Below are positions 35,488-51,293 of a DNA stretch of 64,000 bases, in pieces. This DNA is from Candidatus Saccharimonadota bacterium (GTDB lineage Bacteria; Patescibacteriota; Saccharimonadia; Saccharimonadales; Saccharimonadaceae), in NCBI GenBank assembly GCA_017511925.1, contig JAFWHS010000016.1, positions 1-64,000 on the forward strand. The letters run 5' to 3'. How positions within the stretch are numbered: position 1 is the stretch's first letter; each line of letters starts with the position of its first letter. Below the pieces are notes generated by a model. That model did no database searches. It was not told the origin of the DNA and worked only from the letters and a program-made list of their open reading frames with translations. The position numbers were made by a program, and so were the translations under genes.

Positions 35488-35510
35488 GATCCCTAGAGGA
35501 TCTTTTTTAA
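35486..35510 (+). terminator. Terminator of tRNA-Leu
   Basis: AGATCC-CTAG-AGGATCT followed by six T residues on the plus strand. It overlaps the stop region of the convergent pepN gene. Confidence 0.8.
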
Positions 35511-37976
35511 TGCTGCATAAACCGCTGCTTTATCATCCGCAATTAGTTTCAATCTTGCCTCAATCTCATTTTTGCCTATTTCTATTGCCCGCTTCAGAGC
35601 CGGGTCATCTTTCATTGGCATAAAGAAATCTTTCCAAGCCTCATACTCACTTTCAGTTCTAATCATATTCGCCGTATAACGCGGATAATCATCCATTGAT
35701 TTATCACCCGCCATCTTTTTTACATCTTCCCAATGCTGCCTTAGCCACAAAAATGCCCCATCGCGAGAATGCCTATTTCTATACATATATATAAATAAAT
35801 GCGTTTGATCCTGTGGCTTCACTACTTCAATTTCCCCCAAAAGCCCCAACATTTTCTTCAAAACTTCCGGATTTTTCGAAATCGTTCCCGCAAACAAAAG
35901 TTCAAACTTAATTTCCGGATCAGCTTGCTTTTGATAATCCTCTACATATTTGTCCACAATTTCTGGTTCTAGATAAATCTTGGCCTCCAAAATATCTTCA
36001 CGAATTTCTGGGTCCATTTCATCATAATTTTCACAATACAAATCCGCTAATTCTTCAATATGCTTCTTATTTTCCGCATAATAATCTAGAGTTAGCAAAA
36101 CCGCACGCAATCTAATCGTGTTCTCGTCATCATTTTTCTTAGTAACAAGACCAATTTGTGCCAACTTTGGCCGTACCAATTCACCAATAAATTTCTTAAA
36201 TTCCTGCTCTTCTTCCGAATCGGTATCAAAGAAAAATTTCAAATTACCCACGATCGACAAAATAATATTCCAAACCGCCGCCGCATCTTCATTTTTAAAT
36301 TTTTCAATCAATGGAATCAAAGATGCCGCACTTGCCAAATCTGTCTGCGCAATTAAATTTCTATCTATGAGTAAGCGAATTTTCTCTTCCAAACCTAGCT
36401 CATCAAATTTATTTAATCTCTCTCCAAACTCCGCTTCAGACAAATTTAAAACATAATGCCCAGACATATCTTCGGTAATTTTCGGCAGCGGCCAATCCGA
36501 TTTTTTCATTGGGCCATCTAGCAAAAATCTTTTCTGATCATATTCATCAAAATCACCTTTTTTATTAGTAATCACCGGATATCCTGGTTTATCAATAAAA
36601 GCATGCATCATTTTGCCAACGTCAAACTCCGCATAAGGCAAAAGTGCAGCCCACAAATCATCGCCCACCGTATTTTGATATTTATATTTCTCAAAATAAT
36701 CCTTCAAGCCTTTACAAAAATCTTCCCACCCCATCGCTCTTATTACCATCAACATTAATCTAGCACCCTTAGAATATACAATCGCCGGATCAAACAATGT
36801 AGCAATCTCCGCCGGGTTATGCACTTCTTGATGTACCGACTGCACATCTTTGTGCGAATCTCGAATCAACGCTAAATACGAATCACCCGTAAAAAATCCT
36901 TCAAATATTTTATATTCTGGATGTGCCGCATCCACTGCATAATATTCCATTACGCTAGCAAAAGATTCATTAAGCCACAAATCATCCCACCACTCCATCG
37001 TCACGAGATCACCAAACCATTGATGCGAAAGCTCATGCGCTACAGTCAATGCCACACCTTTTTTCGTGCCTAGAGTTGCCGACTTTCCGGCCAGCAGCAT
37101 AGATTCTCGATATGTTACCAACCCCCAATTTTCCATCGCTCCCGCTTCAAAATCCGGTAACGCCACCTGATCTAACTTCGACAGTGGATAAGGTACCCCA
37201 AAATTATCATCATAAAATTCTAAAGATTTTGCCGCAATCTCATTCGCAAAATCCACCGCATCAATATCTTGATTCAAGGCTGCATAAGTTGTAATCTCTA
37301 CCCCATGCGCATTTTTAATCGTCTTCCCATGAAATTTCCCAATCACCCACGCGAGCAAATATGTACTCATCCTCGGCGTCGGTTCAAATATGGTAGTGTT
37401 GATGCCAGAAGCAAAGGTTGATTCAGGGTATTTCGGAGGCTGCTGCCGAGACATAGGGGTCGAGCCCCGTGAAGACGGGCGCGAGAACCCCGGCCCTGAA
37501 GCGACCTTTACTTCTGGCATATTAGACAGCACCACATCATCTTTATATGGCGTTGTTATCGCAAGTTCAAACACCGCCTTTGCTGCCGGCTCATCAATAC
37601 AAGGGAATGCTTCTCTGGCATAATGACTCTCAAACTGTGTCGCCACTATCACCTCTGTTTTACCCCCATACTCATACGTAGAAATATACGCTCCCTGCAT
37701 ATTTTCATTCAGAGAGCCATGATACCCTATTTTGATAGCAACTTCGCCCCTAGGTACCTTAAAAAGCGTCAAAACACCATCTGTCACATCAAAATCCACT
37801 TTTTCCTCACCAATCAATACTTCATCAACAGATAAGCCCACTGCATGAAATTTCACATTTTCGGCTTTTGCTGCGCCTCTCACTTCCACTGCGCCAGATA
37901 TAGTCTTTTTATACTTATCAATCACCAAATCTAAGCTATATTTCTCTGGTACAAAATAATCTAATAACCTTTCCAT
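35493..37976 (-). CDS. pepN: M1-family zinc aminopeptidase (PepN-like) carrying an in-frame palindromic insert
   Basis: 827 residues. GAMENWGLVTYRE (substrate loop), HELSHQWFGDLVTMEWWDD and downstream NESFA (zinc ligands and catalytic Glu) define an M1 aminopeptidase; an ERAP1-like helical C-terminal domain follows. It trims N-terminal residues from peptides, useful for a peptide-scavenging cell. Between SNMPE and TPRMSTYLLA the family normally has about 22 residues; here there are about 46. The extra part (residues about 152-192) is encoded by a GC-rich 119-nt inverted repeat (see the separate entry). GGAGGAAA precedes the ATG. Confidence 0.95.
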   Translation of the reverse strand: MERLLDYFVPEKYSLDLVIDKYKKTISGAVEVRGAAKAENVKFHAVGLSVDEVLIGEEKVDFDVTDGVLTLFKVPRGEVAIKIGYHGSLNENMQGAYISTYEYGGKTEVIVATQFESHYAREAFPCIDEPAAKAVFELAITTPYKDDVVLSNMPEVKVASGPGFSRPSSRGSTPMSRQQPPKYPESTFASGINTTIFEPTPRMSTYLLAWVIGKFHGKTIKNAHGVEITTYAALNQDIDAVDFANEIAAKSLEFYDDNFGVPYPLSKLDQVALPDFEAGAMENWGLVTYRESMLLAGKSATLGTKKGVALTVAHELSHQWFGDLVTMEWWDDLWLNESFASVMEYYAVDAAHPEYKIFEGFFTGDSYLALIRDSHKDVQSVHQEVHNPAEIATLFDPAIVYSKGARLMLMVIRAMGWEDFCKGLKDYFEKYKYQNTVGDDLWAALLPYAEFDVGKMMHAFIDKPGYPVITNKKGDFDEYDQKRFLLDGPMKKSDWPLPKITEDMSGHYVLNLSEAEFGERLNKFDELGLEEKIRLLIDRNLIAQTDLASAASLIPLIEKFKNEDAAAVWNIILSIVGNLKFFFDTDSEEEQEFKKFIGELVRPKLAQIGLVTKKNDDENTIRLRAVLLTLDYYAENKKHIEELADLYCENYDEMDPEIREDILEAKIYLEPEIVDKYVEDYQKQADPEIKFELLFAGTISKNPEVLKKMLGLLGEIEVVKPQDQTHLFIYMYRNRHSRDGAFLWLRQHWEDVKKMAGDKSMDDYPRYTANMIRTESEYEAWKDFFMPMKDDPALKRAIEIGKNEIEARLKLIADDKAAVYAALKKIL
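37402..37520. repeat. Palindromic element inserted in frame within pepN
   Basis: Two arms of 27 nt, 37402-37428 and 37494-37520, are inverted repeats with 24 matches (each arm reads ATGCCAGAAG, one base, AAAGGT and so on towards the centre). The 65-nt centre is much richer in G+C than the gene and folds again: GGGGT/ACCCC enclosing GCCCGT-CTTC-ACGGG. The reading frame stays open through it, adding about 25-40 residues to a surface loop of the N-terminal beta domain. The design matches the Rickettsia palindromic elements in form; no sequence relationship is claimed. Confidence 0.75.
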
Positions 37977-41130: not shown

Positions 41131-42900
41131 CTAATCTCTTTTTAACATTACAGTAAAGGCTTCGCTAGGTATATCAATCTTCCCAAATCTCTTCATCCTT
41201 GCCTTTCCTTTTTTCTGTTTTGCTAGCAATTTCGCCTTGCGGTCCCTATCCCCGGTATGTATTTTCACAGTCACATCTTTACGATATGCGCCAATCGTCT
41301 CTCTTGCAATAATTCTCGCGCCAATCGCCGCCTGTAAAGCTACTTCAAAATTTTGCCTTGGTATTACTTCTTTCAATTTTTTAGTTACTTCTCGTCCTAT
41401 CGCATCTGCCTCGCTCCTATGCGCCATCACGCTGAGTGCATCTATCCTATTTCCAGCCACCAAAAAATCTACTCTTACTAAATCCTCTGCCTTATATCCA
41501 TTTAATTCATAATTAAATGATGCATAGCCGCTCGTCGCAGATTTTAATTGATCATAAAAATCTGTCAAAAGATTTGCCATCGGTGCTTCAAAATCAATCA
41601 CTGCCCTGTCTTCAATATATCCTAAATTGGTTTGATGCCCACGTTTTTCGTTAATTAAATTCAGCACATTACCGATCATTGGCTTCGGCACAATAATCTC
41701 ACCTTTCACCCAAGGTTCACGAATCTCCGCCACTTCCGAAATATCTGGCAAATCCGCCGCGGATTTTATTTCCTTAACTATGCCATTCGCCATTACTACT
41801 TCATAATTTGTAGACGGATTCGTCACAATAAGATCTAACCCAAACTCACGTTCCAACCTCTCACGGATAATATCCATATGAAGAAGCCCCAAAAATCCTA
41901 TTCGAAGCCCAAATCCTAAAACTGGTGAATTTTCTGGCTCAAATCTCAAAGCCGAATCAGACAAACTCAATTTTTCAATCGCCTCTTTCAAATCTTTATA
42001 TTGATCATTAGAAACGGGGAAAAACCCAGCATACACAAAAGGCAGTACATTTTTATAACCCGGCAAAGGCTCTAAGGCCGGCTTTTTTGCCAAAGTCACC
42101 GTATCGCCTACTTTTGCTTCGCGTGTAGTTTTTAAATTCGTCACAATATATCCGATCTCACCTGCCGACAATTTCTCACGTGAGCTCATTTTTGGCGTCA
42201 ACACCCCAACTTCAAGCGCCAAACCTTTATGCTCTGCCGCCATCATCAAAATTTCAGAATTTTTAGCAATCTCCCCCTCAAACACTCTCACATAAAGCAC
42301 CACCCCACGATAATCATCAAAATATGAGTCAAAAATCAATGCTTTTGTATAATCTGAATCATTTATTTTTAAATTATCTAAACTAACAATTCTGTCTAGA
42401 ATTTTATCAACCCCATATCCAGTCTTTCCCGAAACCTCAATAATATCTTCCCGTTTACATCCGAGCAAATTAATTATCTGCGCCGCAACCCCCTCCACAT
42501 CTGCCGCCGGCAAATCAATCTTATTTATCACCGGAATAATCGTTAAATCTTGTTCCAAAGCAAGGTATACATTAGCTAAAGTCTGCGCCTGTATACCCTG
42601 AGTCGCATCCACCACCAAGACCGCCGCTTCTACAGCCTGCAAACTCCGTGATACCTCATACGAAAAGTCCACATGCCCCGGCGTATCTATCAGGTTCAGC
42701 GTATATCCTTTCCACTTCATCGTTACAGGAGCTAGTTTGATCGTAATCCCCTTCTCTCGCTCCAATTCCATTGAATCAAGAAGCTGCGACTGCATCTCGC
42801 GTTTAGAAACTGTACCAGTCAGCTCCATCATCCTATCCGCAATCGTACTCTTACCGTGATCAATATGCGCAATTATACAAAAATTCCGTATCTTATCCAT
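41131..42900 (-). CDS. lepA: Elongation factor 4 (LepA)
   Basis: 589 residues. GTPase domain IAHIDHGKSTIADRMM, DTPGHVDFSYEV and INKIDLP; EF-G-like domains II, III and V; and the LepA-specific C-terminal domain (LLAKQKKGKARMKRFG). It acts on stalled ribosomes under stress. The promoter is CATAAT with TGC upstream, 6 nt from the ATG, leaderless. Confidence 0.97.
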   Translation of the reverse strand: MDKIRNFCIIAHIDHGKSTIADRMMELTGTVSKREMQSQLLDSMELEREKGITIKLAPVTMKWKGYTLNLIDTPGHVDFSYEVSRSLQAVEAAVLVVDATQGIQAQTLANVYLALEQDLTIIPVINKIDLPAADVEGVAAQIINLLGCKREDIIEVSGKTGYGVDKILDRIVSLDNLKINDSDYTKALIFDSYFDDYRGVVLYVRVFEGEIAKNSEILMMAAEHKGLALEVGVLTPKMSSREKLSAGEIGYIVTNLKTTREAKVGDTVTLAKKPALEPLPGYKNVLPFVYAGFFPVSNDQYKDLKEAIEKLSLSDSALRFEPENSPVLGFGLRIGFLGLLHMDIIRERLEREFGLDLIVTNPSTNYEVVMANGIVKEIKSAADLPDISEVAEIREPWVKGEIIVPKPMIGNVLNLINEKRGHQTNLGYIEDRAVIDFEAPMANLLTDFYDQLKSATSGYASFNYELNGYKAEDLVRVDFLVAGNRIDALSVMAHRSEADAIGREVTKKLKEVIPRQNFEVALQAAIGARIIARETIGAYRKDVTVKIHTGDRDRKAKLLAKQKKGKARMKRFGKIDIPSEAFTVMLKRD

Positions 42901-50997: not shown

Positions 50998-51293
50998 TAT
51001 ACTTAAGGTGCAACAATTCAATAATATAAGTCACTAGTTATTTTTATAACATCGGCTTGAATATAAATGGCATCGTAAGGAAGTCTAATGTTCAAGCTAG
51101 TTCTAGCTAGTGATGATTATTGGATTGTTGCACCCCTTGCGGTGCCATTTTTGTGCATGATCCAAATAAATAAAATAAGTGGCACCGCAAGGAGGATTGG
51201 GGGCATTAGGATACTAGCCAGAGCCATGGCTAAGTAGAGTGTGGGGGAAATAAAAAGTAGGGGGGACATAACAATACTAAGTGAGGTAGCCAC
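50998..51293 (+). promoter_or_regulatory. Long structured leader of the FISUMP surface-protein gene (334-bp gene-free stretch)
   Basis: TGTTATACT (TATACT 50998-51003) starts the RNA near 51007. P1 is 19 bp with one wobble: GGTGCAACAATTCAATAAT (51007-51025) with 51116-51134. Inside are CACTAG (51032-51037)/CTAGTG (51107-51112) and GCTTGAA (51055-51061)/TTCAAGC (51091-51097) with a 29-nt apical loop. The 3' strand end GCACC (51130-51134) can pair instead with GGTGC (51141-51145), followed by CATTTTT: a competing terminator. A third alternative is a perfect 13-bp stem 51135-51147/51180-51192 that would break the terminator and partly cover AAGGAGG at 51189-51195. From 51196 to 51293 nothing is recognised except GAGGT before the ATG. 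Confidence 0.6.

Follow-up and report, generated by a model that had tools for sequence, protein, structure and literature searches.

The GC-rich palindrome that interrupts the M1-family aminopeptidase gene pepN in the stretch of Saccharibacteria DNA analysed here (the window, 64,000 nucleotides in its entirety) belongs to a large family of hairpin inserts, which populate the tiny genomes of these bacteria and mostly lie within conserved genes whose reading frames remain unbroken. In every copy, a double hairpin of about 75 nt forms the conserved core, and it is flanked by arms of about 22 bp that are unique to their site. What is new and of interest in the finding is these site-private arms, and we know of no mobile element that accounts for a near-constant center combined with private matching ends. 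Palindromes that code for protein are on record for Rickettsia and Wolbachia; Saccharibacteria present an independent and dense case from another phylum, and one with a feature that the accounts consulted do not describe for the known cases, namely ends that differ at each site and yet pair over a fixed length. The mechanism of insertion can thereby be tested from sequence data alone as well as with simple experiments. Further, foreign in-frame segments occur in dozens of conserved genes of these reduced genomes, with consequences for annotation and structure prediction and for how protein loops evolve.

The inverted repeat that an earlier note had reported within pepN lies where it had been placed (Table 1). 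Its arms, of 27 nt each and 65 nt apart, are 89% complementary, with 24 of 27 positions paired; when every position of the 64 kb was scanned for this 27/65/27 geometry with at least 20 of 27 pairs, it proved to be the only such place. The RNA folding energy of the element is -63.2 kcal/mol versus -36.2 ± 3.3 for shuffled sequences (z = -8.1), and its GC content of 58.8% (67.6% in the core) against 39.5% in the remainder of the gene bears out the compositional contrast with the host that had been remarked upon. The proposed in-frame location is likewise borne out: the frame stays open across the element, and the matches to known families break around it. The Pfam M1_N domain ends at residue 158 and the M1 domain begins at residue 243, while the alignment with PDB aminopeptidases stops at residue 155 and resumes from residue 196, indicating that the insert lies in a variable stretch. 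This stretch comprises 57 residues with the insert versus 33 in the empty-site orthologues (L047, L048), a difference of about 24 that agrees with the roughly 25 fewer residues claimed for family members. The element is best seen as extending slightly beyond the arms as given, with an outer stem of about 22 bp past the GGG/CCC of the core; its outermost CCAGA/TCTGG is present in empty pepN sites. The outer part of its 5' arm resembles the empty-site orthologues and is therefore probably native. No match to the element was recovered in Rfam. Separately, a palindrome of 128 nt (51007-51134) lies between truB and the adjacent gene of the window; it is missed by the covariance model described below and likewise has no Rfam match.

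Table 1. Coordinates, in the window, of the pepN element with its parts and host gene, and of the empty lepA site.
Feature	Position	Strand	Remarks
Whole palindromic element in pepN	37402..37520	(-), sense with gene	model R1 match 37408-37517, 101.8 bits
5' arm, gene sense	37494..37520	(-)	outer part (NMPE-VK codons) like empty-site orthologues
3' arm, gene sense	37402..37428	(-)	inverted copy of 5' arm; outermost TTCTGG like native empty-site sequence
Conserved core	37429..37493	(-)	two hairpins and outer stem forming a three-way junction; sole part common to copies
Host gene, M1 family aminopeptidase (pepN)	35493..37976	(-)	827 aa including insert
Empty lepA site of the window's genome	42349..42380	(-)	within gene 41131-42900; site occupied by R1-type or other palindromes in relatives

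A plain DNA search of the window's own genome recovered only one partial second copy, and DNA matching the pepN element was detected in 88 of 196 related genomes, 87 of these 88 belonging to the genus. The reach of the family, which we term R1, emerged with a covariance model built from an alignment of 26 copies, whose consensus comprises two hairpins on an outer stem. This model has matches in 116 of the 128 genomes of the genus, with G031, G097 and G203 among those free of copies; the window's own genome contributes 10 copies at E<=1e-8 and one weak match, and a single 718-kb genome (G084) contributes 41. At the level of the taxonomic family, R1 members occur in 14 of 61 genera. A 25-mer from the core retrieved at least 118 stretches from a public genome collection, with the matches listed all coming from Candidatus Saccharibacteria, many of them of the ruminant gut; it was not found in viral contigs. 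Our literature search for palindromic or hairpin repeats in Saccharibacteria returned none. The earlier reading had been made to depend on a second copy and on the insert being lacking in some orthologues of pepN: copies abound in both the window's genome and its relatives, and empty orthologues exist.

The great majority of the copies are genic. Open frames of 150 aa or longer contain 108 of the 139 distinct copies read in context, and likewise 33 of the 41 R1 copies of G084. The host genes include polA (DNA polymerase I), trmD, queA, der, argS, truB, mnmA, uvrB and tsaD, along with those for ObgE, DnaX and an aminoacyl-tRNA synthetase; most of the named host proteins score above curated cut-offs, and the element often divides the profile match in two. 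Both orientations are found among the copies, and five of the six frames are used when these are phased on the core motif. The same gene loop, as in pepN and lepA, can carry the element in either orientation, a different palindrome, or none. The lepA loop spans 62-69 residues in element carriers versus 35-36 where it is empty, and the window's own lepA and truB are both empty. In three further sequences (L193, L199 and L194) lepA bears additional large palindromes, some of them in frame in this same loop. In another (L205, G079:C8:2869-3469) the gene is seemingly split at the loop that holds palindromes in relatives: it meets a stop codon there, followed by sequence of intergenic appearance and then by a new ATG. 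On a short contig of 4333 bp, possibly a contaminant (L002/L106, G000:C1), the frame of a YchF-like GTPase runs on across an R1-type element, and the C-terminal part beyond it looks unrelated.

R1 is not alone in its design. An unbiased scan of G084 uncovered 100 large palindromes, 68 of which are not R1 copies; its contig C1 has 25, whereas a first-order Markov control for C1 yields none. The R1 design recurs in at least one further core family, family B: its 37-nt core (GGACAC[AG]CTCAAGG..GGTCC) is present in 11 exact-pattern copies in G084, each with its own matching arms, both inside and outside genes and with several in ORFs (among L376-L414; e.g. C1:97727, C2:48425, C5:3543 and C10:18697). 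Further palindromes of 160-200 nt with a similar-looking design (G084 C1:16739, C1:125325, C3:62193, C3:16994 and C1:2975), together with those in lepA of L193, L199 and L194, seem to form several more families. The reading of the earlier note stands in so far as a multi-copy palindrome does occupy, in frame, a protein-coding gene of a small-genome Saccharibacterium; this is no isolated new element but a member of an abundant family, accompanied by at least one further family of like design.

The two parts of the element show distinct kinds of conservation. Among the 26 aligned copies, 11 of the 21 consensus pairs are changed on both sides, with G-C/C-G and U-A/C-G swaps at core pairs. The arms differ from site to site and pair with their own partner far better than with swapped ones, 98% of the 139 copies lying above the 95th percentile, even if the search model could slightly favor paired copies via its three outer-stem pairs. 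Pairing amounts to 0.93-0.98 at positions 15 to 26 from the inner end and drops to the alignment background from position 27, and the arm length is therefore fixed; this ruler-like length suggests an enzyme or complex. Single-base bulges have two preferred places: positions 19-21 of the 3' arm, where 62 events of an additional base were counted, and positions 12-14 of the 5' arm, with 42 such events. Even where cores within one genome are at least 99% identical, the arms are only 34-68% alike, and for the 21 copies of G084 so compared the arms occur nowhere else in the fetched genome, as against 20-39 matches for their cores. That the arms were copied from elsewhere in the genome was rejected, as no third copy exists in the 718 kb of G084. 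Mismatches in the stem are about equally often G-T and A-C, both on the core strand (127 versus 135) and on the mRNA strand (88 versus 111), and, given this want of a G-U preference, the stem looks like a DNA-level palindrome, the pairing of which matters or arises in DNA. The non-coding copies display a weak arm consensus resembling AATAnTnCTTTTCGGGG. In the pepN of one relative (G068, L042:1957-2101) an extra hairpin-like segment lies within the core of the element, possibly a nested insertion.

Comparison of orthologous sites, especially within a close clade of four genomes (G055, G100, G103 and G063), reveals what an insertion adds. At G063:C14, the empty counterparts in G055 and G100 already possess the left arm, and the insertion consists of the core plus an inverted copy of that arm. 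A similar native arm is recognizable in pepN when L044 is compared with the empty L048, and also in the sense copies L001, L035, L037 and L040. The native side is reversed in the antisense copies of pepN and in L022. Accordingly, the fixed polarity suggested by L044 and G063:C14 is contradicted by these reversed cases and by certain intergenic sites where no native arm is seen. At three of the latter (L171, L031:277 and G063:C32), neither arm was seen in the empty relatives, so that copying of the target cannot be taken as general from these data. Two of them (L171 and L031:277) are separate insertions into the loop of one native terminator-like hairpin. A diverged direct repeat of about 24 nt accompanies one intergenic site (G100:C5:31476), with none at the other sites looked at. 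At two sites (G055:C1:252078-252198 and G055:C4:22269-22384, compared with G100) the palindromes are identical between two species amid flanks differing by 14-15%, as if the element had moved between orthologous sites or were unusually constrained.

Based on these comparisons, we somewhat favor the view that these are non-autonomous selfish hairpin DNA elements of Saccharibacteria, the arms of which form by inverted copying of flanking DNA. Here, the double-hairpin core would insert into the chromosome and a near-perfect inverted repeat of about 22 bp would be laid down around it separately at each site. One arm would be the native DNA adjoining the insertion and the other its inverted copy, produced, on this view, when the self-complementary core primes snap-back or template-switch synthesis on single-stranded DNA. 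The palindrome might then be retained because the process acts on its hairpin DNA form, and genic copies would survive because proteins tolerate in-frame inserts in their variable loops. Against this view stand the variable side of the native arm, the intergenic sites with neither arm native, and the outcome of the searches recounted below (Y1 transposase, RVT_1, and an autonomous partner in G084), which yielded no enzyme. More tentatively, and with slightly less confidence than in the preceding, we posit an undescribed class of mobile DNA: hairpin cores inserting nearly anywhere, each wrapped via a putative process in a new inverted copy of local sequence measured by a fixed ruler of about 22 nt. 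One such arm-making process may serve several unrelated core families within the same genomes.

The same data could be read more conventionally, as an ordinary MITE- or RPE-type element that moves with terminal inverted repeats, the arms of which drift between copies while compensatory changes keep them paired. Such drift would fit the compensatory double changes that separate the arms at deeper orthologous sites (L005/L006/L007, L097/L121 and L039/L040), the weak arm consensus of the non-coding copies, and the intergenic sites where both arms look newly inserted. It would nevertheless have to saturate the arms without changing the core in order to place identical cores between unrelated yet paired arms in one genome. 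The arms also evolve slowly between G055 and G100, whose ten shared palindromes differ by 1.5% as opposed to 6.5% in their flanks. Nor did a transposase candidate come to light. The Y1 transposase (PF01797), found in just 5 of 128 genomes and not in the window's own, was rejected as a partner. So was the reverse transcriptase: RVT_1 exceeds the cut-off in 68 of 118 genomes of the genus, including two matches in the window's genome (C24:123604 and C24:205139), and profile matches to it are absent from several copy-rich genomes. In the 718 kb of G084, there is no long-spaced inverted-repeat pair of the kind expected of an autonomous relative with matching ends. That genome does have, as an independent observation, inverted-repeat pairs around reverse transcriptase matches that resemble diversity-generating retroelements (C1:101941-104541 and C6:32574-35126; L381, L399). 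On balance, we consider drift of this type fairly unlikely.

A second alternative retains the insertion of the core and moves the origin of the arms to a later time: a bare core would enter, and replication template switching (quasipalindrome correction) would subsequently turn its flanks into perfect inverted repeats. The net gain of the coding loops of pepN and lepA, which is near the core length, the variation of the native side between copies, the lack of a wobble bias and the double changes at deeper orthologues are all in keeping with it. However, ongoing correction predicts double changes, and the ten palindromes shared by G055 and G100 display, in strict alignment, 12 single and 0 double changes in 558 pairs. 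Moreover, copies with bare flanks are not prominent among copies of which nearly all are already paired, subject to the slight preference of the model for paired copies. We accordingly regard this route as improbable.

It appears more doubtful still, and indeed very unlikely, that the palindrome is a functional RNA structure, i.e. a segment of mRNA that is excised (as are rRNA intervening sequences by RNase III), bypassed by the ribosome, or regulatory. While the very stable RNA fold and the conserved structure of the core would suit such a role, G-U and A-C mismatches are equally common on the core strand and on the mRNA strand, unlike the toleration of G-U over A-C expected of intervening sequences of the rRNA type; the frame is kept in the counted coding copies, which would be needless under excision or bypass; both orientations are used; and there is no Rfam match. 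Finally, a chance palindrome, ordinary loop variation or an assembly artefact, for which one might cite the variable length of the pepN loop among relatives, is ruled out by the copy number, with the same core recurring in numerous Saccharibacteria genomes that were assembled separately, orthologous sites occupied alike in different assemblies, and the uniqueness and extreme folding score of the element in the window.

In terms of known systems, the hairpin elements of Saccharibacteria resemble the REP/RAYT-linked palindromes and MITEs (ERIC, RUP, NEMIS/Correia and YPAL) in being short, non-autonomous palindromic repeats that are likely mobile. MITEs, however, have constant terminal repeats, usually with target duplications and a transposase partner, as opposed to the private arms seen here, for which the searches recounted above yielded neither a regularly co-occurring Y1 enzyme of the REP/RAYT kind nor, in G084, an autonomous relative with the same ends. 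Integron attC sites are folded single-strand hairpins of variable sequence with positioned extra-helical bases. These features find parallels in our elements, in which, by contrast, neither cassettes nor attC boxes are apparent. Regions of dyad symmetry are the targets of YPAL (PMC2229807), and the insertions at L171 and L031 in a terminator-like hairpin may reflect similar targeting. GC-rich palindromic mobile units with no known enzyme also occur in other reduced genomes, as the mitochondrial GC clusters and hairpin elements such as yeast GC42 and sponge RHE (PMC4478555, PMC2800124). The sequence of GC42 is constant, and GC clusters lie mostly between genes; site-specific paired arms are not described in the account consulted (PMC4478555).

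The closest parallel is with the palindromic elements of Rickettsia and Wolbachia, which the earlier note had invoked: palindromes of about 100-150 bp in several families, repeated in reduced genomes both between and, in frame, inside conserved genes, with solvent-exposed positions reported for them (PMC2229807, PMC3767692, PMC10969869). More specifically, RPEs are multi-copy palindromes of 105-146 bp that sit within conserved genes in the reading frame; they have terminal repeats, and their open frame encodes a conserved peptide (PMC2229807, PMC3767692, PMC10969869); a constant terminal inverted repeat of 12 bp is listed (PMC2229807). The 119-nt pepN element, with at least 10 copies in its own genome, shares with them the size, the multiplicity, and the occurrence of both in-frame genic and intergenic copies, and in these respects works as they do. 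As against the one conserved peptide and frame per RPE family and their constant terminal repeat, R1 uses five of six core-phased frames over both orientations and has site-private arms, in a host of a different phylum. Membership in the Rickettsia family is thus not supported, a distinction drawn from the described features of RPEs. With neither constant ends nor a single peptide frame, the Saccharibacteria elements are therefore best called RPE-like, and not RPEs.
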